This document shows positions 42,635 through 59,340 of a stretch of 64,000 bases of DNA, piece by piece. The stretch lies in the NCBI RefSeq assembly GCF_017488845.2, contig NZ_CP083370.1, positions 124,001 to 188,000 of the forward strand, written 5' to 3'. Source of the DNA: Ensifer canadensis. Lineage in GTDB: Bacteria; Pseudomonadota; Alphaproteobacteria; Rhizobiales; Rhizobiaceae. Position 1 is the first letter of the stretch, and each line of letters opens with the position of its first letter. The translations under genes were made by a program, and so were the position numbers. The notes under the pieces are model-generated. The model saw only the letters and a program-made list of their open reading frames with translations, was not told the origin of the DNA and did not search any database.

Positions 42635-42694
42635 ACTGCTTGCATTATTGCATCAGTGGAATTATCTTGCAACTGCTTTCAAAATGAAATCAGT
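42635..42694. promoter_or_regulatory. paired 23-bp HxlR operator candidates
   Basis: Two 23-bp elements begin at 42635 and 42672, 37 bases apart. Both start ACTGCTT and end ATCAGT with a CA at positions 9-10. Matching pairs, 36 bases apart, occur at 58702-58760. The first element lies 15 bases upstream of hxlR, and the second about 60 bases upstream of the AHSA1 gene. Confidence 0.7.
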
Positions 42695-42755
42695 TATCTG
42701 GCTGCGCGCGGAAGCGCTGGTGCGTCTGCGCAAATGGATCGAAGAGGAGAAGATC

Positions 42756-43229
42756 ATGAGTGCCAATTCCGTGGAACATGCGAGCTTCACCATCGAACGG
42801 GTTTTCAAGGCGACGCCCGAACAGGTCTTTCGCGCCTTCGCCGATCCGGCGGCGCACGACCGTTGGTTCGTCAAGGCGGACGGGTGGCCGGTCGCCGAAT
42901 ATAGCCACGACTTCCGCGTCGGCGGGCGCGAGAGCGGCCGCTTCAGCAAGGACGGCAAGACCTTCTATCACAACGACACTGTTTACCTCGATATCGTCGA
43001 GAACCGGCGCATCATCTCGGCCTATACGATGGCTGAGAACGAGCGGCGGATTTCCGCTTCGGTGGCAACCGTCGATATCCAGCCGCACGGCGCCGGCACG
43101 CGTATCGTCTTCACCGAGCAGGCGGCCTTTCTTGATGGGCTCGACCAGGTCGCCTATCGGCGTGAGGGCTGGGAAGAGTTGATCGCCGCGCTTGGCACCG
43201 AACTCGGCGAGACGGCGGAAGCCGCCTGA
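42756..43229 (+). CDS. SRPBCC / AHSA1-domain protein
   Basis: This 157-residue protein is of the START-like AHSA1 group: ERVFKATPEQVFRAFADPAAHDRWFV at the N-terminus, DFRVGGRESGRF, and the C-terminal GTRIVFTEQAAF with GWEELIAALG. These are hydrophobic-pocket proteins whose ligands are mostly unknown. ATG 42756 has GAGGAGA upstream. It is divergent from hxlR with the shared operator pair, so it is a likely target of that regulator. Confidence 0.87.
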   Translation: MSANSVEHASFTIERVFKATPEQVFRAFADPAAHDRWFVKADGWPVAEYSHDFRVGGRESGRFSKDGKTFYHNDTVYLDIVENRRIISAYTMAENERRISASVATVDIQPHGAGTRIVFTEQAAFLDGLDQVAYRREGWEELIAALGTELGETAEAA

Positions 43230-43255
43230 TCTGCCATCGCTGCGGATCTGCGGCA

Positions 43256-43840
43256 TTAAAGCATCGTTGCCAGCGCGCTGCCGGCGATGCCGAAGGAGAA
43301 CACCGCGAGACAGACGGCGGCAATGCGGCGCGGCAGATTGGACATGTGCGCGCCGCGCGACAGCCGGATGAGCATGGCGCCGGCGCCGATCCAGAACGAG
43401 CCGGCGACAACGACGAGCAGCGAAAACCCTGTGATCCACGGTATCGTCGCCACCAGTCCGGTCTGCGGCAAAAGCACCAGGGCTACGATCAGGGCCTTGG
43501 GATTGAGAAGCGTCGTAACGAACACCCGTTGGGTGGTGATCTCGGGCGAAGCCCGGTTGTCGTCACCGGTGGTCCACAGTGCATAGGCGAGGAAAAGGAC
43601 CCAGAAGGCAGCCACGATCCGGAGCGCGAGCCCGATCTGCGGATGCGCCGCGAGAAATGGCGCAAGCAGCGCCACGGCTGGAATGATCACCGCGAGATAA
43701 CCGCCGAGTTCGCCTAGGAGCAGCTGCGCCGAGCGCCGAAAACCGACCGCGGCGCCGGAGAGCCAGAGCAAGGTGTTCGTCGGGCCCGGCGTCGCCAAGA
43801 GGACGAGGGCGGAAAGGGTGAAGGCGAGCGGTTGCATCAT
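43256..43840 (-). CDS. LysE-family exporter
   Basis: This 194-residue inner-membrane protein has six helices and the family features ALVLLATPGPTNTLLWLS, LLNPKALIVALVLLPQ and a charged stretch after helix 2. LysE/RhtB exporters remove amino acids or small amines. The substrate cannot be told. It is convergent with the AHSA1 gene, 26 bases away. Confidence 0.85.
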   Translation of the reverse strand: MMQPLAFTLSALVLLATPGPTNTLLWLSGAAVGFRRSAQLLLGELGGYLAVIIPAVALLAPFLAAHPQIGLALRIVAAFWVLFLAYALWTTGDDNRASPEITTQRVFVTTLLNPKALIVALVLLPQTGLVATIPWITGFSLLVVVAGSFWIGAGAMLIRLSRGAHMSNLPRRIAAVCLAVFSFGIAGSALATML

Positions 43841-43997
43841 CGAGGATCCGGTTTCGCGGCGATATTGCGGTCATGTACAGCATCGCGCATCAATCTGGAT
43901 ACGCTCCTGTTGCCGCCGCACTGAGACTTTCTGCATAACTCCCGGGACCGACCCCGACCTGGTTGCTTCATGCGTAGCGAAGAGGCCGGTCCGGGGC

Positions 43998-44011
43998 CTT
44001 GATCTCCATCA
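43998..44011 (+). promoter_or_regulatory. FNR/FixK box upstream of the EamA transporter gene
   Basis: TTGAT-CTCC-ATCAA matches the FNR/FixK consensus TTGAT-N4-ATCAA at every fixed position, with a further C/G pair outside. It lies 129 bases before the start of the EamA gene. Nothing else was found in 43841-44140. Confidence 0.55.
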
Positions 44012-44140
44012 AGCGAAAGTACGAACACACTCCAAGATTTCGCCACAGCGCAGGCTGCCGCCACCTCTTCCGCCTTGAGCGGCGGCGCGCTATCAGACGG
44101 GCGCTGCCGCCTTTTCTCCCGGCTGCCATCGGGGCTTTCC

Positions 44141-45025
44141 ATGAACAAGACAGTGCTTTCCGGCATCGTGATGACGACGTTTTCCTATTTGCTGTTCTCG
44201 CTGCAGGATGCGTCGGTCAAATGGCTGGTGGTCGGCTATTCGGTCTGGCAGATCCTGTTTACCCGCAGCATCACCATTCTCCTCCTGTGTCTGGTGATCG
44301 GCCGGGGCAGGCTCGTGCGCCGCGCGATCTCGTCGCCCGTCGTCAAGCCGCTGTTCGTGCGCAACCTGTTGCTGCTGGCCGCCTGGCTTTCCTATTTCAA
44401 TGCGGCCCGCGATCTCGCCCTTGCCGAAATGACCACGCTTTATTACGCCGCGCCGATCGTGGTGACGCTGCTGGCCGTCCCGATCCTCAAGGAAGACGTG
44501 CCACCAATCCGCTGGTTCGCGGTGCTGCTCGGCTTCATCGGCGTGCTGATCGCCTGCGATCCGCTTGGAACGGGCATGAGGCTCTCGCTGCCGGTTTTCC
44601 TGGCGCTGATGGCCGCCGTGTTCTGGGCGATCGGTACGGTGATGCTGCGCAAGACCGCGCTCCAGGAGACGACACTGACGCAGATGACGATCTCCAACGT
44701 CTTCTTCATCGCAATGACCGGGCTTGCCGTCGGCTTCTACTGGACGCCGCCGGCGCTGTTCGATCTCGCGCTGATGGCGGGCACGGGGGTGATCGCCGGC
44801 ATCGCGCAATATGCGCTGTTCGAGGGCATGCGCCGGGCGCCGATCTCGGTGATCGCACCGTTCGAATATACCTCACTCGTCTGGGCCTTCGGCCTCGGCT
44901 TCCTGATCTGGGGCGATATTCCGGCGAGCAACGTCTTTGCCGGCGCCGGCCTTATCTTCGTCGCCGGACTGACGATCATTGTCGGCGAGCGCTTGGCCCA
45001 TCGGCGGGTGGTTGCCGAGGTTTAG
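44141..45025 (+). CDS. EamA/DMT-family transporter
   Basis: This 294-residue protein has about ten hydrophobic helices in two EamA repeats (about 5-140 and 150-285), with ETTLTQMTISN between them and a final GERLAHRR basic tail. Drug/metabolite transporters of this type export amino acids, purines or drugs. ATG 44141 (MNKTVLSGIV) is the natural start. A perfect FNR/FixK box upstream suggests low-oxygen control. Confidence 0.86.
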   Translation: MNKTVLSGIVMTTFSYLLFSLQDASVKWLVVGYSVWQILFTRSITILLLCLVIGRGRLVRRAISSPVVKPLFVRNLLLLAAWLSYFNAARDLALAEMTTLYYAAPIVVTLLAVPILKEDVPPIRWFAVLLGFIGVLIACDPLGTGMRLSLPVFLALMAAVFWAIGTVMLRKTALQETTLTQMTISNVFFIAMTGLAVGFYWTPPALFDLALMAGTGVIAGIAQYALFEGMRRAPISVIAPFEYTSLVWAFGLGFLIWGDIPASNVFAGAGLIFVAGLTIIVGERLAHRRVVAEV

Positions 45026-45073
45026 CCCGCCTCAAGCAGCGGTAGCTCGATTGTCCAGCTGGCATGATGCCAT

Positions 45074-45187
45074 CGGCCCGGTCTGCTCCAGCATTGCTAC
45101 ACCGAATTCGGCCACCTCGCCAAAGTCCTGACGTCGCTTTACTGGGCCGATCCGGCCAATCGCGCCGATGCGCCGGTGCTTTGGTAG
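45074..45187 (+). pseudogene. possible C-terminal remnant of an unknown gene
   Basis: A short frame ending at TAG 45187 reads CYTEFGHLAKVLTSLYWADP and on to NRADAPVLW. The even, protein-like composition suggests the tail of a lost gene, but there is no start or upstream part. I cannot identify the family, and it may be chance. Confidence 0.25.
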
Positions 45188-45302
45188 CGCCCGACGGCAG
45201 CAGTGACTGCGCAGAAGATTGCCGGCGCGCGGCAACGTTCTCTCCTCCGCGCTCCTCGGGCTTGACGCAAGGACCGATCGGTTAGCGCCGCGAACGGGTC
45301 TG

Positions 45303-45331
45303 GATCCTCGGGTCAAGCCCGAGGATGACGG
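45303..45331 (+). repeat. inverted-repeat element, GGATCCTCGGG type, left copy
   Basis: GGATCCTCGGGTCAAG and CCCGAGGATGAC make a short palindrome. The same element occurs in opposite orientation at 45542-45572. Its translation yields the DPRVKPEDD peptide found in spurious frames of many alphaproteobacterial genomes. Confidence 0.7.
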
Positions 45332-45541
45332 GTGGAGGGCCGGCTGAAGACAAATGCTACCGAAGTGATGCTCAAAGTGCGTTCAGTGCCCCATGTCGCG
45401 GTGCCGGAACGCTTCATTTTCCCCGACGGGAAGACGTTTCTCTGCGCCAGCGTTCGCGACGCGGACAGGCACCAAGGGAAGCCTGCCAGAGTAGAAGACG
45501 CACCTATTCTCGGATCAAAAGGAAATCGGCTCGTCCTCCGA

Positions 45542-45572
45542 CAGTCATCCTCGGGCTTGACCCGAGGATCCA
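45542..45572 (-). repeat. inverted-repeat element, GGATCCTCGGG type, right copy
   Basis: GTCATCCTCGGGCTTG and ACCCGAGGATCCA match the left copy at 45303 in inverted orientation. The two bracket a 210-bp segment without a supported gene, just upstream of the GIY-YIG gene. Confidence 0.7.
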
Positions 45573-45715
45573 TGCGCCCGAGCAATAACGCAAGGGTGTA
45601 TTGCGAGGATCATTGGTCCTCTCTTATCCCGGTTGTTTTCCCGCATCACCAATGCATCTCGCCACTCCGATCTGGACTTGACCAGAACGAGCAGCGGCCA
45701 TCACTATTCGCGCGC

Positions 45716-46000
45716 ATGGCGGGCTATGTCTACATCGTGACCAATCAGAAGAAAGGGACGCTCTACATCGGCGTAACATCCGATCTTGCGCGCCGGATCT
45801 ATGAGCATCGCGAAGGCTTGATGCCCGGGTTCACTTCAAAATACGGGTGCGCCCGGTTGGTTTGGTACGAAGAGCACCTTCAGATCGGCTCTGCAATCCA
45901 GCGTGAGAAATCTCTGAAGCGCTGGTATCGCCAATGGAAACTCGACCTGATCGAGCGCATGAATCCGGACTGGCGCGATCTCTATGAGGAATTGTGGTGA
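45716..46000 (+). CDS. GIY-YIG domain nuclease-like protein
   Basis: This 94-residue protein is a stand-alone GIY-YIG domain of the UPF0213/YhbQ type. The paired motif reads YVYIVTNQKKGTLYIGVTSD, followed by the active-site Arg in LARRIYEHREG and the late Glu/Lys-rich REKSLKRWYRQWK. It starts at ATG 45716 (MAGYVYIV); the longer open frame to the left runs through repeats. The role is unknown but the fold is that of DNA-cleaving enzymes. Confidence 0.9.
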   Translation: MAGYVYIVTNQKKGTLYIGVTSDLARRIYEHREGLMPGFTSKYGCARLVWYEEHLQIGSAIQREKSLKRWYRQWKLDLIERMNPDWRDLYEELW

Positions 46001-46077
46001 CAAATTGGCGAGGGTCGCTTCTGCGGCACCTTATGTCGCGATGTAGCCAACTCATCTGAGATTTCCAACAAACGAAA

Positions 46078-46099
46078 ACAGGCTCCGTGAGGAGCCTGT
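46078..46099 (-). terminator. terminator of the beta-oxidation operon
   Basis: ACAGGCTCC and GGAGCCTGT form a nine-bp stem with a GTGA loop (TCAC on the minus strand), followed on the minus strand by TTTTCGTTTG. It lies 21 bases after the stop of the fadB-like gene. Confidence 0.85.
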
Positions 46100-46120
46100 C
46101 TGCATGTTCGGTGGGATCTT

Positions 46121-48337
46121 TTACGCCGCCTGCTTCTTCTCGCCGTAGGGGTCGAAGCGGCCGTAGAAGGTTTCGCCGCGTTCGGCCATTTCCTTCAGCA
46201 GTGCCGTCGGCTTGAAGTGGCTGCCATAGTCCTTGGCAAGCTTCTCGCACATCTTGACGAAGGCCTTGGCGCCCATGCCGTCGATGTAGGAGAGAGTGCC
46301 GCCGGTGTAGGGCGCAAAGCCGAAGCCGAGGATCGAGCCGACGTCGGCTTCGCGCGGATCGGTGACGATGCCTTCTTCCATGGTGCGGGCCGCTTCGAGC
46401 GCGATCGTTGCCAGGAAGCGCTGCTTCAGCACCTCGACGTCGATCTTGTCGGCATTCTCTTGCGGATAGAGCGTCTTAAGCTCCGGCCACAGGTACTTCT
46501 TCGCGGGCTTTGCCGGATATTCGTAGAAGCCCTTGCCGTTCTTGCGGCCGCGACGGTCGAGGTCGTCGACCATCTTGTTGATCAGCGCCATGTGCTTGGG
46601 ATCGACGGCCTTTTCGCCGAGATCGGCGACGGTGGCTTTCAGGATCTTCTGGCTGAGGTCGATTGCCACTTCGTCATTGAGCGACAGCGGGCCAACCGGC
46701 ATGCCGGCCATCTTGGCGGCATTTTCGATCATCGCCGGCGGCACGCCCTCGATCAGCATGTCATAGGCTTCGTGGATGTAGCGGAAGACGCAGCGGTTGA
46801 CGTAGAAGCCGCGCGTGTCGTTGACGACGATCGGCGTCTTCCTGATCGCGGCGACATAGTCGAGCGCGACGGCGAGCGCCTTGTCGCCGGTCTCCTTGCC
46901 GAGGATCACTTCCGTCAGCATCATCTTCTCGACCGGCGAGAAGAAGTGGATGCCGATGAACTGGCCGGCACGCTTCGAGTTCTTCGCAAGGCCGGTGATC
47001 GGCAGCGTCGAGGTGTTGGAGGCAAAGATCGTGTCTTCGCCGATAACCGCTTCCACCTTCTCGATCACGTCCTTCTTGACCTGGCGGTCTTCGAACACGG
47101 CTTCGACGACGAGCCCGACATCCTTCAGGTCGTTGTAGTCTGCGGAGGGCGTGATGCGCGCAAGCAGCGCTTCGCCTTCTTCCTTGGTCAGGCGGCCCTT
47201 GCCGACCGAATCCTTGACCAGGCCCTCCGAATGGGCCTTGCCCTTGGTCGCCGCTTCCATGTCGCGGTCGATCAGCGTGACGGCGATGCCGGCGGCGGCC
47301 GTCACATAGGCGATCGAGGCGCCCATGAAGCCGGCGCCGACGACGCCGACATGCTTGAACTCGGACTTCGGCACGCCGGCCGGGCGGCGGGCACCCTTGC
47401 CGAGTTCCTGCATCGAGACGAACAGCGAGCGGATCATCGAGAAGGCTTCGGTCGTCTGAAGGATCTCGGTGAAGTAGCGCTGTTCGATCTTCAGAGCCGT
47501 GTCGAAGGGGACCTGCAGGCCCTCATAGACGCATTTGAGGATCGCGATCGCGCCTGGGTAGTTGCCTTGCGTCTCGCGGCGCAGGATACCGGAGGCAGCC
47601 GGCCAGAGCTGGGCCGAGGCCGGGGTCCAGATGCCGCCGCCGGGTACCTTGTAGCCCTTTTCGTCCCAGGGCTGGACCGGCTTCAGGCCGTTCTTGATCA
47701 TCGCCTTGGCAGCCTCGACCAGCTTGTCGGCGTCGACGACTTCATGCACCAGGCCAAGCGCCTTGGCGCGCGCCGCGGTCAGCGACGAGCCGGTGGTCAT
47801 CATCTGCAGCGCGTCCTGCGCGTTGGTCAGGCGCGGCACGCGCTGGGTGCCGCCGGCGCCGGGGAAGATACCGACCTTGACTTCAGGCAGGGCGATCTTG
47901 ACCGACTTGGAGTTCGAGGCGACGCGGCCGTGGCAGGCGAGCGAAAGCTCGAAGGCGCCGCCCATGCAGGTGCCGTTGATCGCCGACACCCACGGCTTGC
48001 CGGAGGTTTCGAGCTTGCGGAACAAGCCGGTCATGCGGCCGACGAGGTCGAAAAGCTTCTGGGCGGCGTTATCAGGGTCCTTCTTCTTTTCTTCCTGCTG
48101 GAAGGTGAACATCGACTTGATCATCGAGAGGTCAGCGCCGCCGGAGAACGACGACTTGCCCGACGTGAAGACGACGCCCTTGACGGCGGCATCGGCCGTC
48201 GTCTCGTCGACGATGGCGTTCAGCTCTTCCATCACCTCCTGGGTGAAGACGTTCATCGACTTCTCAGGCATGTCCCAGGTGACCAGGGCAATGCCGTCGG
48301 CATCGGTCTCGATCTTGAAATTGGTATACTTCGTCAT
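46121..48337 (-). CDS. fadB: fatty acid oxidation multifunctional protein (enoyl-CoA hydratase / 3-hydroxyacyl-CoA dehydrogenase)
   Basis: This 738-residue protein carries an N-terminal enoyl-CoA hydratase domain (about 1-200; TSGKSSFSGGADLSMIKSM, TCMGGAFELSLACHG, EVKVGIFPGAGGTQR) and a C-terminal NAD-dependent 3-hydroxyacyl-CoA dehydrogenase (about 330-700; HVGVVGAGFMGASIA, HFFSPVEKMMLTEV, VNDTRGFYVNR, GFGFAPYTGG). It runs steps two and three of beta-oxidation. ATG 48337 (MTKYTNFKIE) follows GAGGGGGAG. It is last in the order thiolase, lipoprotein, fadB, with an 11-base gap before it. Confidence 0.93.
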   Translation of the reverse strand: MTKYTNFKIETDADGIALVTWDMPEKSMNVFTQEVMEELNAIVDETTADAAVKGVVFTSGKSSFSGGADLSMIKSMFTFQQEEKKKDPDNAAQKLFDLVGRMTGLFRKLETSGKPWVSAINGTCMGGAFELSLACHGRVASNSKSVKIALPEVKVGIFPGAGGTQRVPRLTNAQDALQMMTTGSSLTAARAKALGLVHEVVDADKLVEAAKAMIKNGLKPVQPWDEKGYKVPGGGIWTPASAQLWPAASGILRRETQGNYPGAIAILKCVYEGLQVPFDTALKIEQRYFTEILQTTEAFSMIRSLFVSMQELGKGARRPAGVPKSEFKHVGVVGAGFMGASIAYVTAAAGIAVTLIDRDMEAATKGKAHSEGLVKDSVGKGRLTKEEGEALLARITPSADYNDLKDVGLVVEAVFEDRQVKKDVIEKVEAVIGEDTIFASNTSTLPITGLAKNSKRAGQFIGIHFFSPVEKMMLTEVILGKETGDKALAVALDYVAAIRKTPIVVNDTRGFYVNRCVFRYIHEAYDMLIEGVPPAMIENAAKMAGMPVGPLSLNDEVAIDLSQKILKATVADLGEKAVDPKHMALINKMVDDLDRRGRKNGKGFYEYPAKPAKKYLWPELKTLYPQENADKIDVEVLKQRFLATIALEAARTMEEGIVTDPREADVGSILGFGFAPYTGGTLSYIDGMGAKAFVKMCEKLAKDYGSHFKPTALLKEMAERGETFYGRFDPYGEKKQAA

Positions 48338-48348
48338 GGTTCTCCCCC

Positions 48349-48759
48349 TCAGTAGAGAATGGGTTCGATGCGCAGCGAGATATTCGATCCGCCGCTGTAA
48401 CGTTGTTTGGTGGTGTTGGTGGCGATCAGCCTGCCGTCGCGCTCGACGCTGATGGTGAAGCCGGCATCGGCGGCCTTGTCGAGTTCGGGCTTCGGCACCT
48501 GCAGCACGAAGGGCACACGGTTTGCCTTGCCGTCGCTCGAAACGGACGTTTCGGCGATCAGCTTGGCGGCCACATCCATCACGCCCTGCTCCTCGAGCCG
48601 GATGGTGACGGTGCCTGCCGGAACCGGGCCGTTGGCGACATTGGAGATCGCACCGGTCAGCGTGAAGCTGTCGCCGCCTTCGTCTTCGGAGACGCAAGCT
48701 GAGACTGCAAGCAGCCCCAGCCCCATCAGCCCGAGAAGCGTGCGGCGCGTGGCTACCAT
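48349..48759 (-). CDS. YbaY/YscW-family lipoprotein
   Basis: This 136-residue protein has a lipoprotein signal ([20 protein letters not shown]) with Cys at the lipobox AVSAC. The domain that follows ([29 protein letters not shown], then [13 protein letters not shown] and a closing SLRIEPILY) fits the YbaY family (PF09619). Its function is not known. It begins two bases after the thiolase stop and ends 11 bases before fadB, so it is translated inside a beta-oxidation operon. Confidence 0.82.
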
Positions 48760-48761
48760 CG

Positions 48762-49970
<1,209 letters not shown>

Positions 49971-50019
49971 GTCTCATCTCCCTTTCGGCAGCACCTGATG
50001 GTGCCGCCCGTCAAACACT

Positions 50020-50120
50020 TACAGCGCGGCGCGTCAGACGCGCTAAGGACGCTGTAACACTTTAAACTTGCTGCATAATTTTACGCCTAGATCGGATCCG
50101 ATTTAAGGAATCATGCAGTA
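50020..50120 (-). repeat. two-palindrome intergenic element, copy A6 (RIME-like)
   Basis: TTACAGCGCGGCGCGTC and GACGCGCTAAGGACGCTGTAA make the first palindrome. The second has outer arms CTGCATAATTTTACGCCTAG and GATTTAAGGAATCATGCAG with a GATCGGATCC centre. It lies between the acyl-CoA dehydrogenase and thiolase genes. Confidence 0.85.
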
Positions 50121-50140
50121 GAAATCGGAACGCGGCGAAA

Positions 50141-51937
50141 TCAGAACGCCGCCGCGTCGAGCGCCATCAGCGTGTCGGCGCCAGTCTCGATGCGGGCCTT
50201 GCGCAGCGCCGTTTCCGGCAGAATTCTCTCCATGAAGAACGTCGCGGTAATCAGCTTGTTCTTCAGATAGTCCGCGCGTGCCGTTTCGCCAGAGGCCAGT
50301 TTTTCCTCGGCGGTCTTGGCGATCTTCGCCCACATGTAGCCGAGCACGACCAGACCGAAGAGGTGCATGTAGTCGGTCGAGCCGGCGCCGGCATTGTCGG
50401 GCTTGGCCATGGCGTTCTGCATGAACCACATGGTGGACGCCTGCAGGTCGTTGAGGCCTTTCTTCAGCGCCTTGGTGTAGGTGGAAAGCTTCTCGTTACC
50501 GCGGTTTTCCTCGCAGAAATCGCCGATTTCCTTGAACAGCGCCATGACGGCACGGCCGCCGTTGAGGCCGAGCTTGCGGCCGACGAGGTCGAGCGCCTGG
50601 ATGCCGTTGGCACCTTCGTAGATCATCGCGATGCGGGCATCGCGGACATACTGGCTCATGCCGTGTTCTTCGATGTAGCCGTGACCGCCGAACATCTGCT
50701 GCGCCATGACCGCGTGGTCGAAGCCCTTGTCGGTCAGGACGCCCTTGAGGATCGGCGTCATCAGGCCGAGGATGTCGTCGGCCGTCTGGCGGTCGGCGTC
50801 ATTGTCGGAGCGGTGGGCGATATCGGATTTGAGAGCAGTCCAAAGGGTAAAGGCGCGTCCGGCCTCGTTGAAGGCGCGGATCGTCATCAGCGTGCGGCGC
50901 ACATCCGGATGCACGATGATCGGGTCGGCCTTTTTGTCCGGCGCCTTCGGGCCGGAAAGCGAGCGGCCCTGGATGCGGTCGCGGGCATAGTTGGCGGCGT
51001 TCTGGTAGGCGATTTCGGCGACCGACAGGCCCTGCAGGCCGACACCGAGACGGGCTTCGTTCATCATCACGAACATGGCGTTGAGGCCTTTGTTCTCCGT
51101 GCCGATGAGGTAGCCTTCCGCCTCGTCATAGTTCATGACGCAGGTCGAGTTGCCGTGAATCCCCATCTTGTGCTCGATGGCGCCGCAGGAGACGCCATTG
51201 CGCTCGCCCGGCTCGCCGTCGGCGGTGAGCTTGAACTTCGGCACGATGAACAGGGAAATGCCCTTCACGCCATCCGGCGCGCCCTCGATGCGGGCAAGCA
51301 CCAAATGGATGATGTTCTGCGACATGTCGTGTTCGCCGGCGGAGATGAAGATCTTCTGGCCGGAAATCTTGTAGGCGCCGTTGCCATCGGGCACGGCCTT
51401 GCTGCGCAGGAGGCCGAGGTCGGTGCCGCAATGCGGCTCCGTCAGGTTCATCGTGCCGGTCCAGGTGCCGTCCACCATCTTCGGCAGATAGGCCCGCTTC
51501 TGCTCATCCGAGCCATGGACGAGGATCGCAGCGATCGCGCCCTGGGTCAGGCCGGGATACATCGTCAGCGCCATGTTGGCCGAGGACATATATTCGCCGA
51601 CGGCGGTGTGCAGCGTGTAGGGCAGGCCCTGGCCGCCGAATTCCTCTGGCACCGAAAGCCCGAGCCAGCCGCCTTCGCGGTAGAGATCAAAAGCCTGCTT
51701 GAAGCCCTTGGGCACGCTGACCGAGCCGTCGTCGTGCCGCTTGCAGCCTTCCTGGTCGCCGGAAAGATTGACCGGAAACAGCACTTCTTCCGCAAGCTTG
51801 GCGGCTTCGCCGACGATTGCTTCGATCATGTCGGGCGTCGCATCGGCAAAGCCGGGAAGGTTGTTGTATCGCTCGATGCCGAGCACGTCGTTCAGAATGA
51901 AGAGAGTATCGTCTACCGGTGCCTTGTAGGTGGGCAT
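50141..51937 (-). CDS. acyl-CoA dehydrogenase
   Basis: This 598-residue flavoprotein starts beta-oxidation by forming the trans-2-enoyl-CoA. It belongs to the long acyl-CoA dehydrogenases with an extra C-terminal domain, as in DmdC and similar proteins. FAD and substrate regions include LTEPHCGTDLGLLRSKA, KISGQKIFISAGEHDMSQN and QMFGGHGYIEEHG, and the catalytic Glu lies in AMIYEGANGIQALDLVGRKL. ATG 51937 (MPTYKAPV) follows GAGGAAA. A 26-bp operator identical to that before the nitronate monooxygenase gene lies about 120 bases upstream. Confidence 0.93.
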   Translation of the reverse strand: MPTYKAPVDDTLFILNDVLGIERYNNLPGFADATPDMIEAIVGEAAKLAEEVLFPVNLSGDQEGCKRHDDGSVSVPKGFKQAFDLYREGGWLGLSVPEEFGGQGLPYTLHTAVGEYMSSANMALTMYPGLTQGAIAAILVHGSDEQKRAYLPKMVDGTWTGTMNLTEPHCGTDLGLLRSKAVPDGNGAYKISGQKIFISAGEHDMSQNIIHLVLARIEGAPDGVKGISLFIVPKFKLTADGEPGERNGVSCGAIEHKMGIHGNSTCVMNYDEAEGYLIGTENKGLNAMFVMMNEARLGVGLQGLSVAEIAYQNAANYARDRIQGRSLSGPKAPDKKADPIIVHPDVRRTLMTIRAFNEAGRAFTLWTALKSDIAHRSDNDADRQTADDILGLMTPILKGVLTDKGFDHAVMAQQMFGGHGYIEEHGMSQYVRDARIAMIYEGANGIQALDLVGRKLGLNGGRAVMALFKEIGDFCEENRGNEKLSTYTKALKKGLNDLQASTMWFMQNAMAKPDNAGAGSTDYMHLFGLVVLGYMWAKIAKTAEEKLASGETARADYLKNKLITATFFMERILPETALRKARIETGADTLMALDAAAF

Positions 51938-52057
51938 TCTTTCCTCGCCTTTTTCGCTTTCGGATCGCCGCCTCCAAGCGGCCGACGTCCGGTTGCAACA
52001 TGCCGAATGCGCCGCCATCTGAGGGCGGTCTCGCATCGTTGGCAGGATGCTACAAAA

Positions 52058-52083
52058 TTTTGACGTTTGCGTAAACGTCAAAA
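52058..52083. promoter_or_regulatory. 26-bp palindromic operator upstream of acyl-CoA dehydrogenase gene
   Basis: The arms TTTTGACGTTTGC and GTAAACGTCAAAA are the same as at 17588-17613 in all 26 bases. The site lies 121 bases before the acyl-CoA dehydrogenase start, in the gap to divergent podJ. Confidence 0.7.
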
Positions 52084-52192
52084 ATACCGCCCGATCGAAG
52101 TTTCGCTTGCGGATAAAAGGCGCGGTGAAATCGCCGCCGCACAACACTCTCCATCAGCTAGCACTGTCAAATCGTTAAAAAATCCGCGCCGG

Positions 52193-52208
52193 TTAACGGC
52201 TTGTTTAC
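52193..52208 (+). promoter_or_regulatory. CtrA-like box upstream of podJ
   Basis: TTAA-CGGCTTG-TTTAC matches TTAA-N7-TTAAC with one mismatch. It lies 164 bases before the podJ start codon, in AT-rich DNA likely to hold the promoter. Confidence 0.4.
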
Positions 52209-52371
52209 CACGTTTAATGAAAGGTGCGTGTTGAGATGGTCAAAGCTGCAACCGGTCCGGTCCTCGCATTGTTGTAGCTTTGCCCACGTCGCAAGTGCCG
52301 CAGGGGTGAAGGAAGCCGTTTCCTTCCGTGGCGACTTTCGAGATGGCCGACGGACAGGGGCGAAGAGCACA

Positions 52372-55300
52372 ATGAATGGATCGCGATCAAATCCTCAGCG
52401 CGCTGGTAGCCAGAGCTATGGCGAGCGGCCCTCTCTGGACGCCCTGAACCGCACGATTGAAGGGCTTGAAGCCCGGATCGAAGGCCTGATGAACGGAGCG
52501 GGACGCGAGCCGCCGGCCCGTCCAGTCGAGCGCGAGCGTGTCGCCCCCCGCGATATCCCATCCCCGCGTGATGCCGTCTCCGAAATCATGCAGCGCCAGC
52601 GGGCGCTTAGCACGTCGCGCGAGCGGCCACCCTTGAGAGACCGTTTGCCGCAACGCGAGCCGGATCGCCTGGCCCAGCGCGAGCCCGAGCGTTACGTCGA
52701 CGATATACGGCCCCAGCCGGTACGTGCGCCCGTCGCCCGGCCGGCGGCGGCCGTCAACGATATCGCCGAGGCACTCGTCGGATTGCGCCAGGACCTCAAG
52801 CGCGACATCACCGAAGGCGTCACCCGCGAGATGAACTCCCTGCGCGCCGAAATTCGCGGCATCAAGGTGCAGGCCCAGGACCACAGCTTCGCCGAGGACG
52901 TGCGCGGCGACATGCAGCGCCTTGCCGACAGCATCCAGCAGCTCGGCCGCCAGGCGTCGCCTGCCCAGGCGGATGCGCTGCGCAGCGACTTTGACGATCT
53001 GCGGGCGATGATCGACGGCTTGGCGCGCGAAGACAGCGTTCGCCGCATGGAAAGCCGCTGGAACGGCGTCGAGGATCGGTTGATCGCCTTTGACCAGAAC
53101 CGCGACGACGAGCTGGTGGCGCTGGCCTACCGTCTCGACGAGATCAAGTCGCAGATCGGGGCGCTGGGCAACAGCTCTGCGGTCGACGTGCTTGAAGACA
53201 AGATGATTGCGGTCGCCCAGGCGATCGAGATGCTCGGCCGCCAGATACAGCCGGACGACCGGCGCCTCGTGTCGCAGTTCGCTGACCTCGACGCGCGGCT
53301 TGACGAAATCAGCCGGGCGATTGCCGCCAACAGCCGCAGTGCCAGCGGCCTCGAGGGCGGGTTCGCCAATCGCCTGGAGACCAGGCTCGGCGACCTCTCG
53401 CGGCAGATCGACGGATTGTCCCGCCCTGTTGATTCCGGTCTCGGTGCCCGCCTCGAAGCCTTGGCCGCACGGGTTGAGGATCTCGCCGGCGAGAAGGCTG
53501 CGGCCGGACTGGAAGAACGCCTCGACCAGCTTTCCATGCTGATGGAGCGCAGCCACCGAAATGTCCAACCGGACCTGACGAACTACCTCAACGACATCTC
53601 CCGCAAGATCGAAGCGCTCGATCAAGGCAGCGTCAACGATGCTCTGGCCGAGCGGCTCGACTATCTCGCCCGCCGCATCGACGACCTCGACACGCTCAGC
53701 GCACACCCCGTCGCCGATCCGCGTTTCGACCGTCTTGAAGATCGCCTCGCTGGCATAGCGCAGCGGCTGGAAGAAACCTATGCGGCGCCGTTCGACGACC
53801 GCGCCGCGCTGCACAACCTCGAAGCGCAGATCGCCAACCTGTCGACCCTGGTCAGCCAGCCCCGCAGTGAGGCGGGTGCCGCCATGCCGGTGGAATTCGA
53901 GAGCCGCATGAATGCGCTCGAAGACTATTTCGCCACCAGCGACGAGTACATCGTCGAGGCCGCGCGGCAGGCGGCCGAGGCGGTGATGGAGGCATATTCC
54001 AGGAAGGGCATGCCTCAGTCGGCCGGTGGCGGCGATCTCGCGGCGATCTCGGCGCTGGCGGAAGACCTGCGCACGCTCGAAGATCTGAGCCGCTCCAGCG
54101 ACGAGCGCACGGCGCGCACCTTTGAAGCCCTGCATGAAACCCTCGTTCACATCGCCGACAAGCTCGAGCGTATCGAGGGCCGCGAGCCCGCCATGGCCGC
54201 GGCGCATTACGAGGCGCCGGTGGCGCGCGAAATTGCTGCGATGCCCAAGGCAGCTCAACCGGAATTCAACGACCCGTTCAGCGGCGCCGATCTCGATGAC
54301 CGCTATCAGGATCTGCAGCGCAACGTCCGCGCGCTCCAGGCGGAAGACGACGGCGTCATTGCCGCCGCCACCGCATCTGCGCATGCGACTGCGTTCGCCG
54401 GTGACGAAGGTCAGGTTTCGACCATCGAGCCCGATGGCGCGCGCGAACAGCCGGCTACCGCCCGCACGGGCCTGCTTGCTGACCTGACCCGGCGCTTTTC
54501 CGGGAAGCGTGCCGAGCCCGCACAGGAGCTGGCACGACAACTGGTCGAGCCCGCCCCCTCCATCGACCCATCCGAAATGCTGGCACCCGAAGAGGCCAAT
54601 CAGCTGCTCGAGCCGGGCTCTGGTGTTCCCGACGTCAAGAAGATTCTCGAGCGTGTTCGCGCCGGCCAGATGAACCGCGGCGGCAAACAGGCGGCAGACG
54701 GCGACAAGGCGGACTTTATCGCCGCCGCCCGCCGGGCAGCGCAGTTGGCGGTCGAGGAAGCCGATACGCTCAACAAGACCAAGGACGGTGGCGTTGCCAG
54801 CGGCGTTGGTGGTGCCTTTGCCCGCCATCGCCGCCCGATCTTGATGGCTGTCGGCGCCGTGCTGCTTGCGATCATGTCCTATCCGCTCGTCGGCGCCATG
54901 CTGAAGGGCAGCGATGCGCCCGTTGCCGAACCGGTGGCGATCATCGAACAGCAGTTGGCGCCCGTCGCTGAACAGCCGGCGATCGCCAACGCAACCAAGG
55001 TCGCGGGCGACCAGGCACCGGCGGCAGCCGCCGTAGCGACCGAAACACCGGTCGAAGCGCTGCAGCCCATTCCCGAAGCGCCGCTCGATTCCGTCGAGCA
55101 GCCGTCAAGCGCCGTTGAGACGCCAGCCGCCGCGACGCCACCGGCCGACACATCCGCATCGACGAAGGCGGTAAACGAAACGCAGGCGCCGTTGCTCCAG
55201 CCCGTGCCGGAAGCCAAGGGGCCGGTCGCCGCTTCGACGTTCCAGGCCGCCCCAGTCGATGCCGCGCAGGCCGGAACCTTTGCGCCGGTCGCAAAGGCTG

Positions 55301-56160
55301 CCGAAGTCGTCCTGCCCGATGGTTTCGGCCCGGTTGCGCTGGTGACGGCCGCCAAGGGTGGCGATCCCCTGGCTTTCTACGAGATCGGTGCGCGCTACAC
55401 AGAAGGCCGCGGCGTCAATGAAGATCTGGCGGAAGCCGCCAAATGGTATCAGCGCGCCGCCGACGCCGGCGTCGTGCCGGCCGAATACCGGCTCGCCAGC
55501 ATGTATGAGAAAGGCTCGGGTCTGACGCGCGACGCTGCCAAGGCCAAGGTTCTCTACCTGAAGGCCGCCGAGCAGGGCAATGCCAGCGCCATGCACAATC
55601 TCGCGGTCATGCTGGCCAGCGGCCGCGATGGCTCGCCGGATTTCGCCGAGGCGACGAAATGGTTTGCCAAGGCAGCCGAGCTCGGCATCCGCGACAGCCA
55701 GTTCAATCTGGCTGTCCTCTATGCCCGCGGCAACGGCGTGCCGCAGGATCTTGAAGCATCCTACAAGTGGTTTTCCGCCGCCGCCCGCGAGGGCGACATG
55801 GATGCTGCGGCCAAGCGCGACGACGTGGCCAAGGCGATGAAGCCCGAGCAACTTTCGAGCGCCAAGGCCAAGGCCGACGCATGGAAGCCGCAGGCGGTCG
55901 ACGCCAAGGCGAACACGGTCGACGTGCCGGATGCCTGGGTAGGACCGGCCAACAAGACCGCCTCGATCGACATGAGCAAGGCCATTCGCAACATCCAGGC
56001 GATCCTCAACAATAACGGCTTCGACGCCGGCAAGCCGGACGGCCAGATGGGCAAGAAGACGGTTGCCGCGATCAAGGCCTTCCAGACATCCGTCGGCCAG
56101 GAGCCGACCGGTGAAATCACCGACCAGCTGGTGAAGGAATTGCTCAAGCGCAATTCCTGA
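52372..56160 (+). CDS. podJ: PodJ-type polar organising protein
   Basis: This 1262-residue protein has the PodJ layout. A cytoplasmic N-terminal region (about 1-600) is rich in heptads and coiled coils. A Pro/acidic linker with basic patch follows, then one transmembrane helix (about 821-845) and an Ala/Pro-rich periplasmic spacer. Four Sel1 repeats follow (about 997-1143; for example YTEGRGVNEDLAEAAKWYQ and YARGNGVPQDLEASYKWF), and a C-terminal peptidoglycan-binding domain ends the protein (about 1203-1262; NNNGFDAGKPDGQMGKKTV). PodJ marks the new or old pole and organises division in Caulobacter and Agrobacterium. ATG 52372 (MNGSRSN) follows GAAGAG. Confidence 0.87.
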   Translation: MNGSRSNPQRAGSQSYGERPSLDALNRTIEGLEARIEGLMNGAGREPPARPVERERVAPRDIPSPRDAVSEIMQRQRALSTSRERPPLRDRLPQREPDRLAQREPERYVDDIRPQPVRAPVARPAAAVNDIAEALVGLRQDLKRDITEGVTREMNSLRAEIRGIKVQAQDHSFAEDVRGDMQRLADSIQQLGRQASPAQADALRSDFDDLRAMIDGLAREDSVRRMESRWNGVEDRLIAFDQNRDDELVALAYRLDEIKSQIGALGNSSAVDVLEDKMIAVAQAIEMLGRQIQPDDRRLVSQFADLDARLDEISRAIAANSRSASGLEGGFANRLETRLGDLSRQIDGLSRPVDSGLGARLEALAARVEDLAGEKAAAGLEERLDQLSMLMERSHRNVQPDLTNYLNDISRKIEALDQGSVNDALAERLDYLARRIDDLDTLSAHPVADPRFDRLEDRLAGIAQRLEETYAAPFDDRAALHNLEAQIANLSTLVSQPRSEAGAAMPVEFESRMNALEDYFATSDEYIVEAARQAAEAVMEAYSRKGMPQSAGGGDLAAISALAEDLRTLEDLSRSSDERTARTFEALHETLVHIADKLERIEGREPAMAAAHYEAPVAREIAAMPKAAQPEFNDPFSGADLDDRYQDLQRNVRALQAEDDGVIAAATASAHATAFAGDEGQVSTIEPDGAREQPATARTGLLADLTRRFSGKRAEPAQELARQLVEPAPSIDPSEMLAPEEANQLLEPGSGVPDVKKILERVRAGQMNRGGKQAADGDKADFIAAARRAAQLAVEEADTLNKTKDGGVASGVGGAFARHRRPILMAVGAVLLAIMSYPLVGAMLKGSDAPVAEPVAIIEQQLAPVAEQPAIANATKVAGDQAPAAAAVATETPVEALQPIPEAPLDSVEQPSSAVETPAAATPPADTSASTKAVNETQAPLLQPVPEAKGPVAASTFQAAPVDAAQAGTFAPVAKAAEVVLPDGFGPVALVTAAKGGDPLAFYEIGARYTEGRGVNEDLAEAAKWYQRAADAGVVPAEYRLASMYEKGSGLTRDAAKAKVLYLKAAEQGNASAMHNLAVMLASGRDGSPDFAEATKWFAKAAELGIRDSQFNLAVLYARGNGVPQDLEASYKWFSAAAREGDMDAAAKRDDVAKAMKPEQLSSAKAKADAWKPQAVDAKANTVDVPDAWVGPANKTASIDMSKAIRNIQAILNNNGFDAGKPDGQMGKKTVAAIKAFQTSVGQEPTGEITDQLVKELLKRNS

Positions 56161-56407
56161 TCCGGCAGGGTCTGCCGCCGCAATAAAGCCGCAGAACCGG
56201 GTGACACGGTTCGCGGAGCCGAAGCTGTACGCCATGTGGCTGAAAAGGTTGACAGCTCCGGCCCAGGAGCGCATGACGGAAGCCTATGCCACCTCGCCCT
56301 CGGGAGGGGTGTCGGCTTTCAGAGATAATCCCCCCTCCGTGGTGAATTACTTGCCACTGTGACGTTTTTTGCCCGCACCGCGGGCCGTTGGCATATTGAG
56401 GTCCGGC

Positions 56408-57334
56408 GTGACGATTTATCTGCCCATCGCAGAGTTGTCGGTGAACATACTCATCATCCTCGGCATGGGTGCGGCCGTCGGCTTTCTATCGGGCATGTTC
56501 GGCGTCGGTGGCGGGTTCCTGATCACGCCTCTCCTGATCTTCTACAACATTCCCCCCGTGGTTGCCGTTGCGACCGGCGCCAACCAGGTCGTGGCCTCCT
56601 CGATCTCGGGTGCCATCACCCACTTCCGGCGCGGCACGATCGACATCAAGCTCGGCACGGTGCTTCTGTGCGGCGGCCTTGCCGGGGCAACGGTCGGCGT
56701 CTGGCTGTTCTCGCTCTTGCGCCGCGTCGGTCAGCTCGATCTGGTCATCTCGCTGCTCTATGTCGTGCTTTTGGGCTCGGTCGGCAGCCTGATGCTGTGG
56801 GAGAGCGTGCGCGCCATGCGCAAGGCGGCCAAGAACCACGCGACGCCGCTGCGCCGTCCCGGGCAGCACAACTGGGTTCACCGGCTGCCGCTGAAGATGC
56901 GATTCAAGAAATCGAAGATCTATCTGAGCGTCATTCCCGTCGCTGCCCTCGGCTTCTGCATCGGTGTCCTGACGTCGGTCATGGGTGTCGGCGGTGGCTT
57001 CATCATGGTCCCGGCGATGATCTACCTCCTGCGCATCCCGACCAATGTGGTTGTCGGCACCTCGCTGTTCCAGATCATCTTCGTCTCCGCCTACACGGTC
57101 ATCGTCCAGGCCTCGACCAACTATACCGTCGACATCGTGCTCGCCTTCGTGCTGATGATTGCCGGCGTCGTCGGTGCGCAATACGGCGTCCGGGTCGGCC
57201 AGAAGCTGCGCGGCGAGCAGCTGCGCGCGCTGTTGGCGCTGCTGGTGCTTGCCGTCGGCATTCGTCTGGCAATCGAACTCGTCATTCCGCCGAAGGACAT
57301 CTATTCGGTCGTGTCAGCGGGGTTCGGCTTCTGA
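56408..57334 (+). CDS. TauE/SafE-family (TSUP) membrane permease
   Basis: This 308-residue protein has about eight membrane helices and the paired TSUP motif G-M-F-G-V-G-G-G-F (MFGVGGGFLITP near residue 35) and G-V-G-G-G-F (VMGVGGGFIMVPA near residue 196). TSUP proteins move sulfite, sulfoacetate or other organosulfur anions, or act as sulfur-relay permeases. GTG 56408 follows GAGG and is the best start. Its stop overlaps the next gene (TGATG), a TIGR02186 protein. Confidence 0.88.
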   Translation: MTIYLPIAELSVNILIILGMGAAVGFLSGMFGVGGGFLITPLLIFYNIPPVVAVATGANQVVASSISGAITHFRRGTIDIKLGTVLLCGGLAGATVGVWLFSLLRRVGQLDLVISLLYVVLLGSVGSLMLWESVRAMRKAAKNHATPLRRPGQHNWVHRLPLKMRFKKSKIYLSVIPVAALGFCIGVLTSVMGVGGGFIMVPAMIYLLRIPTNVVVGTSLFQIIFVSAYTVIVQASTNYTVDIVLAFVLMIAGVVGAQYGVRVGQKLRGEQLRALLALLVLAVGIRLAIELVIPPKDIYSVVSAGFGF

Positions 57335-58137
57335 TGCGCCGCCTCATCAATATCGCCCTCGCAGCCCTGACGCTCTCCTTCGCCGCTCCGGCCAGTGCCC
57401 AGCTGCAGGACGAGAACGCCAACGACTTCACCGAGAAGCTGGAGATCGGCATCTCGACCGACGAGATCGCCATCACCTCGGATTTCCGCGGCGCGGATCT
57501 GACGATCTTCGGCGCGGTCGACGGTTTCAATCCCAATCTCCTGGCGCAGGGCAAATACAACATCATCGTTTCGCTCGAGGGGCCGAAGGATAATGCGACG
57601 GTGCGCAAGAAGGAACGCGTCTTCGGAATCTGGGTAAACACCAGCTCCATGACCTTCGAGCTGGTGCCGGAATCCTATTCGCTGTCGAGCACGCGTGACA
57701 TCGAGACGATCGCCCCACCGGGTGAAATGGGCAACATGGGCATCGGGGTCGACCACATGCGGCTTGTGCCCCTCGGCTTCGTCGGCGACGGCAGCAATCT
57801 CGGCGAGTTCCGCAATGCCTTCCGCCGCATCCGCGAGACGAGCGGCGTCTATGAGCGCGATCCCGGTGGTGTGCAGTTCATCAGCTCCAGCCTGTTCAAG
57901 GCGTCGGTGCGCCTGCCTGCCAACGTGCCGAACGGGGTGCATGTTGTGCGCGCCTATCTCTTCCGCGACGGCACCTTCGTCGCCGCCAAGGCGCTGCCGC
58001 TGCGCGTGGTCAAGACGGGTTTGGAGCAGGTGATCACCGAGACGGCGCATGGGCAGCCGCTGTTCTACGGCGTTTTTGCCGTGCTGCTCGCTGTCATCAC
58101 CGGCTGGGGCGCGAGCCTGCTCTTCCGCAAGGAATAG
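57334..58137 (+). CDS. TIGR02186 family transmembrane protein
   Basis: This 267-residue protein matches the alphaproteobacterial family TIGR02186 (PF09608). It has a signal peptide (MRRLINIALAALTLSFAAPASA), a periplasmic domain (about 24-235) and a C-terminal helix (FYGVFAVLLAVITGWGASLLF) with the short tail RKE. Conserved stretches are ISTDEIAITSDFRGADLTIFGAV and FGIWVNTSSMTFE. Its start codon overlaps the TSUP stop, so the two are translationally coupled and probably work together, perhaps as a periplasmic accessory of the transporter. Confidence 0.85.
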   Translation: MRRLINIALAALTLSFAAPASAQLQDENANDFTEKLEIGISTDEIAITSDFRGADLTIFGAVDGFNPNLLAQGKYNIIVSLEGPKDNATVRKKERVFGIWVNTSSMTFELVPESYSLSSTRDIETIAPPGEMGNMGIGVDHMRLVPLGFVGDGSNLGEFRNAFRRIRETSGVYERDPGGVQFISSSLFKASVRLPANVPNGVHVVRAYLFRDGTFVAAKALPLRVVKTGLEQVITETAHGQPLFYGVFAVLLAVITGWGASLLFRKE

Positions 58138-58204
58138 TCCTCGGCGGCAATCGGCCGACGTTCCCTTTTGGGCGCCGGACGGGTAAAGAAGGCCTACTGA
58201 ATAG

Positions 58205-58300
58205 TTCCTTAAATCGGAATCGATTTAAGGAGAAAACGATGCAGCAGTTTAAAGCGTTGCAGCGGCCTTAGCGCGTCATTCTTGTCGCGCGGCGCTGCAA
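58205..58300 (+). repeat. two-palindrome intergenic element, copy A7 (RIME-like)
   Basis: TTCCTTAAATCGG and CGATTTAAGGAG are the core of the first palindrome, but the outer left CTGCAT arm is missing. The second is intact (GTTGCAGCGGCCTTAGCGCGTC with GTCGCGCGGCGCTGCA). It ends about 20 bases before the RAM-domain gene start. Confidence 0.8.
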
Positions 58301-58321
58301 GGCAGAAACAGAGGAAACTCC

Positions 58322-58558
58322 ATGAAAGCGATTTTCGTCCAGTTGCAGTGCGCTCCCGGCAAGACCTACGAGGTTGCCGACGAGATCTACCGCAAGGAGA
58401 TCGTTTCGGAAATGTATTCGACGAGCGGCGACTACGACCTCCTGCTCAAGATCTACATCGAAGAAGGCCAGGACATCGGCAAGTTCATCAACGACAACAT
58501 TGCCACGGTTGCGGGCATCTCCCGCTCGCTGACGACGCTGACCTTCAACGCGTTCTGA
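58322..58558 (+). CDS. stand-alone Lrp/AsnC ligand-binding (RAM) domain protein
   Basis: This 78-residue protein has only the RAM fold: MKAIFVQLQCAPGKTYEVAD, then SGDYDLLLKIYIEEGQDIG and SLTTLTFNAF. It lacks the DNA-binding domain of Lrp regulators. Such single-domain forms bind amino acids or other small molecules as oligomers. ATG 58322 has GAGGAAAC upstream. No operon partner is apparent. Confidence 0.88.
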   Translation: MKAIFVQLQCAPGKTYEVADEIYRKEIVSEMYSTSGDYDLLLKIYIEEGQDIGKFINDNIATVAGISRSLTTLTFNAF

Positions 58559-58701
58559 GCTAGCGGGCGGCCCCGCTTTACCCGGCAGGCCTCACGCTCG
58601 ACGGTGAGGCACGCCTCTCGCGCTGTACGAAAACAATCCGCGATCATTGCACAGCCCGTCGGCGGAGCACCCACGGCTGTTCGATTTTTCCGAAGGTCAA
58701 A

Positions 58702-58760
58702 ACTGCTTGCAATTTGATATCAGTTTGATATCGTCAAACTGCTTCAATTATGCAACCAGT
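58702..58760 (+). promoter_or_regulatory. paired 23-bp HxlR operator candidates, second locus
   Basis: Elements at 58702 and 58738, 36 bases apart, both start ACTGCTT and end CAGT at 23 bases. They match the pair at 42635/42672. The second overlaps the ATG at 58750, a position suited to repression of initiation. Confidence 0.68.
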
Positions 58761-59340
58761 TTTGAAAGAGCGGAAAAATGGAAAACTCATCGTCTGGAAT
58801 CTGGTGACGCTCGACGGTTACTTCGAAGGCGCGAAGAAATGGGATCTCGATTTCCACAACAGTGCCTGGGGTCCTGAACTAGACGAACTCAGCCGTGAGT
58901 TTGGACAAAAGACCGAGGCGCTGGTCTTCGGTCGCGTGACCTACGAAGGCATGGCCGCCTATTGGTCGACGACCGAGGAGGAGGGCGAGGTCAAGACCTA
59001 TATGAACGCTCTGCCAAAGATCGTCGCATCGCGAACGATGGATAGGGCAGAATGGAACAACAGCCGTGTCGTCAGCGATATCGCCGGCGAACTGCGGCGG
59101 ATGAAGCAGGAAGCCGCGAAAGACCTCTATATTTTCGGCAGTGCCGAACTGGTCGATTCATTGCTGCCGGAAAATCTGATCGACGAGATCATGCTGTGCG
59201 TCGTTCCGCTCCGGCTTGGCAAAGGCACGCCGTTCTTCAAGAGTGCCGAAAACGCGATGTCGATGGCGCTTCTGGAAGCGCGACCGCTTTCTACCGGCAG
59301 CGTGATCCTGCGTTACGCGCCGCAACCTGTTGCGGCCTGA
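58750..59340 (+). CDS. dihydrofolate reductase-family (RibD C-terminal) protein
   Basis: This 196-residue protein has the RibD_C/DHFR-like fold: KLIVWNLVTLDGYFEGAKKWDL, ALVFGRVTYEGMAAYW, KDLYIFGSAELVDSLLP and the C-terminal DEIMLCVVPLRLGKGTPFF. It should bind NADPH and reduce an unknown substrate. The start ATG 58750 lies inside the second operator copy; a TTG at 58762 is possible. It is probably regulated by the HxlR protein at 42110. Confidence 0.85.
   Translation: MQPVLKERKNGKLIVWNLVTLDGYFEGAKKWDLDFHNSAWGPELDELSREFGQKTEALVFGRVTYEGMAAYWSTTEEEGEVKTYMNALPKIVASRTMDRAEWNNSRVVSDIAGELRRMKQEAAKDLYIFGSAELVDSLLPENLIDEIMLCVVPLRLGKGTPFFKSAENAMSMALLEARPLSTGSVILRYAPQPVAA

Follow-up and report, generated by a model that had tools for sequence, protein, structure and literature searches.

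In Bacillus subtilis, the N-terminal Cys6 of the regulator YodB is alkylated by quinones, which leads to its release from DNA (PMC8063818), and a formaldehyde bridge between Cys11 and Lys13 of the HxlR protein raises the DNA binding of that regulator (PMC7835342), according to the excerpts of these sources; the title of a 2005 paper, cited in PMC9137774 and PMC9224381, names the latter protein as an activator of hxlAB. Here we describe a stretch of 64,000 nucleotides from Ensifer canadensis (contig NZ_CP083370.1, positions 124,001 to 188,000), referred to below as the window, in which a 23-bp inverted repeat occurs as a pair at each of two distant loci: between an hxlR gene and a divergent gene for an AHSA1-domain protein, and at the start of a gene for a DHFR-like reductase of the RibD_C family (RibD1). 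We propose, with a probability of roughly 0.8 and on the strength of sequence comparisons, that these elements are the operators of a single HxlR regulon and that the protein encoded at 42110-42619 would bind them.

The pattern ACTGCTT-N12-CAGT matches the window four times, against 0.01 matches expected from dinucleotide shuffles, and nowhere else in the window. The candidate operator elements 1 (42635-42657) and 2 (42672-42694) lie 37 bp apart between the divergent hxlR and AHSA1 genes, whereas elements 3 (58702-58724) and 4 (58738-58760), all four being given on the forward strand, lie 36 bp apart and precede and partly overlap the start of the RibD1 open reading frame (ORF). The initial annotation had placed four 23-bp elements at these positions, with these two spacings and in front of these genes, and our analysis confirms it on each of these points. 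The core of the element is approximately AACYRNTTGCA-N3-TGCAAYCRGTT. In the whole genome, the loose form ACTGNTT-N12-CAGT was unselective (10 strand matches versus 15 for the reversed control). A 24-base pattern with the wrong spacing returned only noise (139 matches per strand versus 257 for the control), and a 23-base pattern relaxed to three mismatches mixed true and chance sites (15 per strand versus 10); one place that it proposed in the same genome, C1:3373794 (locus L014), was discarded for its low score with the weight matrix described below (maximum 3.2). Since the bare motif is weak genome-wide, its meaning comes from relatives.

We built a symmetrised weight matrix from 96 elements found in 48 of the 50 hxlR loci L113-L162, none of which is titled Sinorhizobium or Ensifer; the pairs were taken at a fixed offset of 37 bp, and the set includes off-register second elements (L117, L135, L154, L159, and L161) and one wrong element (L120). 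When the window was scanned with this matrix, elements 2, 3, 4, and 1 took the first four ranks, with scores of 34.2, 32.6, 30.6, and 23.8, respectively, while the fifth rank scored 6.2 and the maximum in the reversed window was 7.1. Because the matrix is blind to the 58.7-kb pair and to its genus and still places that pair on top, the pair is independently recognised. A calibrated sequence-only model was then made from 59 of 72 distinct elements, leaving out both elements of L117, L154, L159, and L161, the first element of L153, and the second elements of L114, L120, L135, and L144. In its searches, 150 of 1689 first-look candidates were scored in the genome of the window and 19 per genome, under stricter filters, across the order, so that weak sites can be missed. 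At E < 0.1, the model found seven elements at five loci of the genome: RibD1 elements 4 (5.8e-4) and 3 (0.0024), a site on contig C4 near a YCII-domain gene (0.0044), hxlR element 2 (0.011), a site before a second RibD_C gene, RibD2 (0.0128), a site before a glutathione S-transferase (GST) gene (0.0149), and hxlR element 1 (0.068), the next distinct site having an E value of 2.1. A partial match to the model at C1:3865655-3865674 (12.1 bits, model positions 8-27) has an identical score in all 16 genomes of the genus.

The conservation of the pair at hxlR was followed in the genus and beyond. All 16 genus genomes, including that of the window, carry an hxlR ortholog (88-100% identity) with the pair at 37 bp in its promoter. 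In a wider set, the best 80 of 157 loci, which come from Sinorhizobium, Ensifer, Mesorhizobium, Nitratireductor, Aquamicrobium, Devosia bins, two other Rhizobiales, and four Actinobacteria, the best element matches stand exactly 37 bp apart in 65; a typical pair outside Sinorhizobium and Ensifer is AACCGGTTGCATTATCATATCAGTT and AACTGATTGCAAAATGCAATCAGTT (L143). Of the 30 loci L083-L112, 25 have a tblastn match to AHSA1 in the vicinity of hxlR. The actinobacterial loci (L157, L159, L161, and L162, from Microlunatus, Bailinhaonella, and Planotetraspora) encode an HxlR protein 69-73% identical to that of the window with a RibD_C gene opposite; L159 and L161 carry clear elements, those of L157 and L162 being weak. 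These loci suggest that the module has been transferred between phyla.

At E 1e-40, RibD1 was not found in any of the 15 remaining genomes of the genus, and at E 1e-50 it is present in 18 of the 397 genomes from the order, ours included. Two elements lie upstream of the gene in 14 of the 17 other genomes, with a spacing of 36-38 bp except for 34 in L205, and hxlR is its divergent neighbor in 10 of the 17. In four genomes (G325, G360, G409, and G305), RibD1 has the pair and hxlR lies on another contig, an arrangement that resembles the stand-alone RibD1 of the window. The three RibD1 genes without a pair are those of G235, which has no hxlR ortholog at 1e-40, of G151, which has one weak element (12.6), and of G416, where RibD1 follows an apparent AHSA1 frame (L206, by eye). 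The retention of the paired elements at most orthologous loci of both kinds, together with the frequent placement of RibD1 opposite hxlR, supports the proposal of the initial annotation that an HxlR regulon joins AHSA1 with the distant reductase.

The regulon appears to be larger than these two targets. The GST element (C1:1981381) starts 121 bp before its gene (L007:4003-4686), the RibD2 element (C1:2862801) starts 91 bp before the RibD2 gene (L013:3893-4441), and a YCII-domain gene (L012:3525-3857, reverse strand) lies at a distance of about 144 bp from the YCII element (C4:756571). The element precedes GST in 16 of 16 genus genomes and RibD2 in 15 of 16, and it was found in none of nine members of a control family of RibD_C paralogs. 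A longer, genus-derived consensus had 33 strand matches in the 16 genomes versus one for its control; their coordinates place one of the 33 at a second AHSA1 gene and all the others at GST, RibD2, hxlR or RibD1. Further sites in the genus precede this second AHSA1 gene in L181 and L212, a gene of the YCII family in L214, and RibD_C genes of a third kind in L218, L220, L225, and L235, the genes being assigned by Pfam except for L225 and L235, which were assigned by near-identical proteins; a site in genome G012 (L236, E 0.156) lies within a coding sequence and was taken as chance. The initial annotation is supported on AHSA1 and the reductase but set the regulon too small, given that GST, RibD2, and probably the YCII gene belong to it in this genome. 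Its description of the element as paired holds for hxlR and RibD1 and is not obligatory, since GST and RibD2 have one full element each. In relatives, the regulon would also take in SnoaL-like, further RibD_C, and further AHSA1 genes.

The position of the elements with respect to predicted promoters offers an explanation for the spacing. On the forward strand, a predicted AHSA1 promoter (42640-42668) has its -35 box, TTGCAT (42640-42645), in element 1, followed by a 17-bp spacer and the -10 box TATCTT (42663-42668); on the reverse strand, a predicted hxlR promoter (42661-42689) has its -35 box, TTTCAT (42684-42689), in element 2, followed by a 17-bp spacer and the -10 box GATAAT (42661-42666). 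The two predicted promoters thus face each other and share the gap, in which their -10 boxes overlap, and each element spans one promoter's -35 box as well as the other's start region. The predicted RibD1 promoter (58707-58734, forward strand) has its -35 box, TTGCAA (58707-58712), in element 3, a 16-bp spacer, and the -10 box TATCGT (58729-58734), with element 4 over the predicted start; at GST and RibD2, the one full element lies at the -35 position and the -10 box is less clear. In the 42 of the 80 hxlR loci that passed a strict pattern, the geometry is TTGCAT-17-TATCGT rightward and TTGCAT-17-GATAAT leftward. The pattern itself demands TTG(C/T)(A/G) within element 1 and another element at +37, so these two features are not independent evidence, whereas the -10 hexamers are. 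The rightward -10 hexamer reads TANNNT in 39 of these 42 loci; on the hxlR side, the hexamer agrees with TATAAT at four or more of its six positions in 33. Averaged over the loci, this agreement is highest at a spacer of 17 on the hxlR side (4.33; next 2.74), and on the rightward side it is 3.79 at 17 and 3.74 at 14. The 37-bp distance would be fixed because the opposing promoters share the gap and the elements lie on their -35 boxes. The initial annotation had read the spacing as more than three helical turns; the distances stand, but the -35 boxes of opposing promoters explain them better than helical turns alone.

This layout predicts repression of both hxlR and AHSA1, and, given the regulon, we consider repression the likely sign of control. 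An alternative is that the same HxlR regulon exists and its regulator activates all or some of the targets, as B. subtilis HxlR does on hxlAB. That protein is a positive regulator according to the cited title, and formaldehyde raises its DNA binding (PMC7835342), so family membership does not fix the sign of regulation, a point that tells against our reading, and element 1 occupies a -35 position, where some activators also bind. Nevertheless, element 1 lies on a predicted -35 box and element 2 on a predicted start region, the promoters are near-consensus with 17-bp spacers, and the lysine of the formaldehyde bridge, two residues after Cys11, is replaced by Ile11 in the window protein, all of which make activation unlikely.

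For the order as a whole, we compared the occurrence of this HxlR ortholog, called at E 1e-40, with that of a site, called at E 0.03, in 397 genomes. Fifty-nine genomes have the ortholog and 59 have a site: 46 have both, 13 only the gene, and 13 only the site. Remote sites, those lying beyond 600 bp from hxlR, were found in 26 of the 59 genomes with the ortholog versus 13 of the 338 without it (Fisher 2.5e-15; 1.1e-14 for 25 of 58 when our genome is removed), p-values that are only indicative because the genomes share ancestry. Among 59 remote sites, we read those of our genome, 12 in other hxlR genomes, and one in a genome without hxlR. The 12 precede RibD_C genes (six), GST genes (two, that of L276 assigned by reading the protein), SnoaL-like genes (two), and YCII frames (two, that of L279 identified by eye), and the last, in G107 (L291), lies inside a coding frame and was taken as chance. 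In L279, the YCII-like frame (1300-1500) near the strong element has no standard start codon. A second line of evidence does not depend on the motif. Within up to 6 kb around hxlR in L113-L162, where several contigs are shorter, a GST gene is present in 36 of the 50 loci, an AHSA1-like gene in 23, and a RibD_C gene in 8 (tblastn, 1e-5). RibD_C is the immediate divergent neighbor of hxlR in all four actinobacterial loci, and in Mesorhizobium albiziae (L144) genes for an alpha/beta hydrolase, GST, AHSA1, and RibD_C stand in a row. Since this clustering is independent of the motif, it argues that the GST, AHSA1, and RibD_C families belong together.

It is important to consider the observations that weigh against a single regulon of this kind. 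Fifteen of the 80 hxlR loci lack the 37-bp spacing (the same site was chosen twice in 11, and the distance is 35, 38, 39 or 40 in four). The RibD2 gene of L040 has no element and that of L046 a weak one (13.8), and the GST elements of L074, L075, and L077-L079 score lower (best match 16-21). Any site is absent from 13 of the 59 hxlR genomes, and 13 of the 338 genomes without the ortholog have one. Finally, a first look found 19 other HxlR-like candidates in the same genome, and the more distant HxlR loci L032-L034 carry related TTGC/GCAA repeats (by eye), so a paralog could share or own some of the sites. These last two facts are also what favors a different regulator, for example an HxlR paralog, with the hxlR gene of the window merely neighboring a target site. 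We judge such a regulator improbable: the pair flanks this hxlR in every genome of the genus, it persists despite changed neighbors in Mesorhizobium and in the four actinobacterial loci (clear in two and weak in two), and the remote sites track this hxlR ortholog. That the pairs are chance or repeat-derived sequence with no regulatory role has a negligible probability and is in our view already refuted by conservation, because, although the loose motif is no commoner genome-wide than its control, the window holds four exact copies against 0.01 expected, an independent matrix picks the same four, and the position before the same genes is conserved across genera.

As for the regulator itself, hxlR (42110-42619, reverse strand) encodes 169 amino acids that match PF01638 over residues 18-106 (65.5 bits versus a cut-off of 20.8); its nearest solved relative is PA1607, followed by B. 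subtilis HxlR, and YodB is also among its solved relatives. The protein scores 52.3 bits with the RrpB model NF047364, whose curated cut-off is 175. Cys9, its only cysteine, is conserved in every one of the 81 aligned sequences, as is the isoleucine two positions after it (Cys9-Pro10-Ile11); therefore, the formaldehyde-bridge mode of sensing is unlikely here. By analogy with the described family members, we lean towards electrophile sensing by Cys9. In the mechanism that we propose, an HxlR dimer on each element would block both opposing promoters, resulting in autorepression and repression of AHSA1, and HxlR would repress in trans RibD1, through its pair, GST and RibD2, through one full element each, and probably the YCII gene. 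A reactive compound would modify Cys9, HxlR would leave the operator, and the gene set would be turned on. That the targets act in detoxification on a shared class of substrates is a tentative suggestion. In several hxlR loci (L023, L026, and L028-L030), in 11 of 16 RibD2 loci (L036-L051), and in 7 of 16 GST loci (L073-L079), a further match, weaker in most cases, is shifted by 17 bp from the main element and overlaps it, a pattern that half-sites tiled at 17-bp intervals would produce; such tiling may allow overlapping or cooperative dimers.

Our broader interpretation, which we hold as a conjecture somewhat short of even odds, is that of an old, horizontally shared xenobiotic-response regulon of Alphaproteobacteria and some Actinobacteria, in which a single-cysteine HxlR repressor and one operator code would govern a movable kit (RibD_C, AHSA1/SRPBCC, YCII, SnoaL-like, GST, and sometimes alpha/beta hydrolase genes) directed at a single class of reactive compound, either aromatic or polyketide-like. 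The RibD_C-only reductases, the AHSA1-type SRPBCC proteins, and the YCII proteins each form a large family to which little physiology has, to our knowledge, been assigned. If the interpretation is true, the shared operator would be a common functional handle on these orphan small-enzyme families: by grouping them under one sensor, it predicts which paralogs act together, and, combined with the opposing-promoter layout, it allows members of the regulon to be predicted in other genomes by sequence only. A promoter reporter with a compound screen would be a cheap route to the inducer. HxlR-family stress regulons are known; in line with the initial annotation, which is aware of no described regulon joining AHSA1 and the reductase, we found no description of this regulon, with its paired opposing-promoter layout and target set, in the titles and abstract openings of open-licence literature, among the matches listed.

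The structural genes of the two loci require some additional comments. The AHSA1/SRPBCC-domain protein has 157 amino acids and is encoded at 42756-43229 on the forward strand (PF08327, 76.4 bits). The RibD1 ORF (58750-59340, forward strand) has 196 codons, and its product is a stand-alone RibD_C protein, this domain (PF01872, 59.7 bits) being the only one found and the deaminase domain being absent; among the solved relatives are a 'dihydrofolate reductase family protein' and 'yyaP'. Its true start is uncertain. The first ATG of the ORF (58750) falls inside element 4. Another ATG, at 58778, follows a purine-rich stretch and matches the starts of the aligned orthologs in position, but it is in a different frame; this discrepancy (58750-58800) could stem from a frameshift, from an error in the assembly or from an unusual start. 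Directly before the RibD1 operator, 58322-58558 encodes a stand-alone Lrp/AsnC ligand-binding domain protein of 78 amino acids (PF01037 only). In G305 (L199), RibD1 is preceded by a gene end that resembles, by eye, that of the window gene terminating at 58137, a hint that RibD1 was perhaps present here ancestrally and has since disappeared from the other members of the genus.

Compared with the described systems, as far as the cited excerpts present them, the regulon combines familiar features in another arrangement. SydR of Sinorhizobium meliloti (PMC11633110) is likewise a one-component redox repressor with an adjacent target, two operators in a shared intergenic region, and a critical cysteine; nevertheless, it is of the MarR type and is compared with OhrR, and we rejected it as the same system since its operator, TATCGCGATA, does not occur in the window elements. 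B. subtilis HxlR belongs to the same Pfam family, is the second-nearest solved structure, and has an N-terminal cysteine, but it is activated by formaldehyde, with a Cys11-Lys13 bridge (PMC7835342), where the window protein has isoleucine at the lysine position, and it is a positive regulator of hxlAB. YodB (PMC8063818) differs in its operator, TACT-N7-AGTA, which by eye is in none of the four window elements, these being 23 bp long, with other half-sites, often paired, and placed in an opposing-promoter layout; in a second reactive cysteine (Cys101), where the window protein has Cys9 only; and in the families of its targets (azoR1 for YodB). It is also a member of the same MarR/DUF24 (HxlR) family that controls quinone detoxification, with a conserved N-terminal cysteine and a palindromic operator, features in which the regulator proposed here resembles it.

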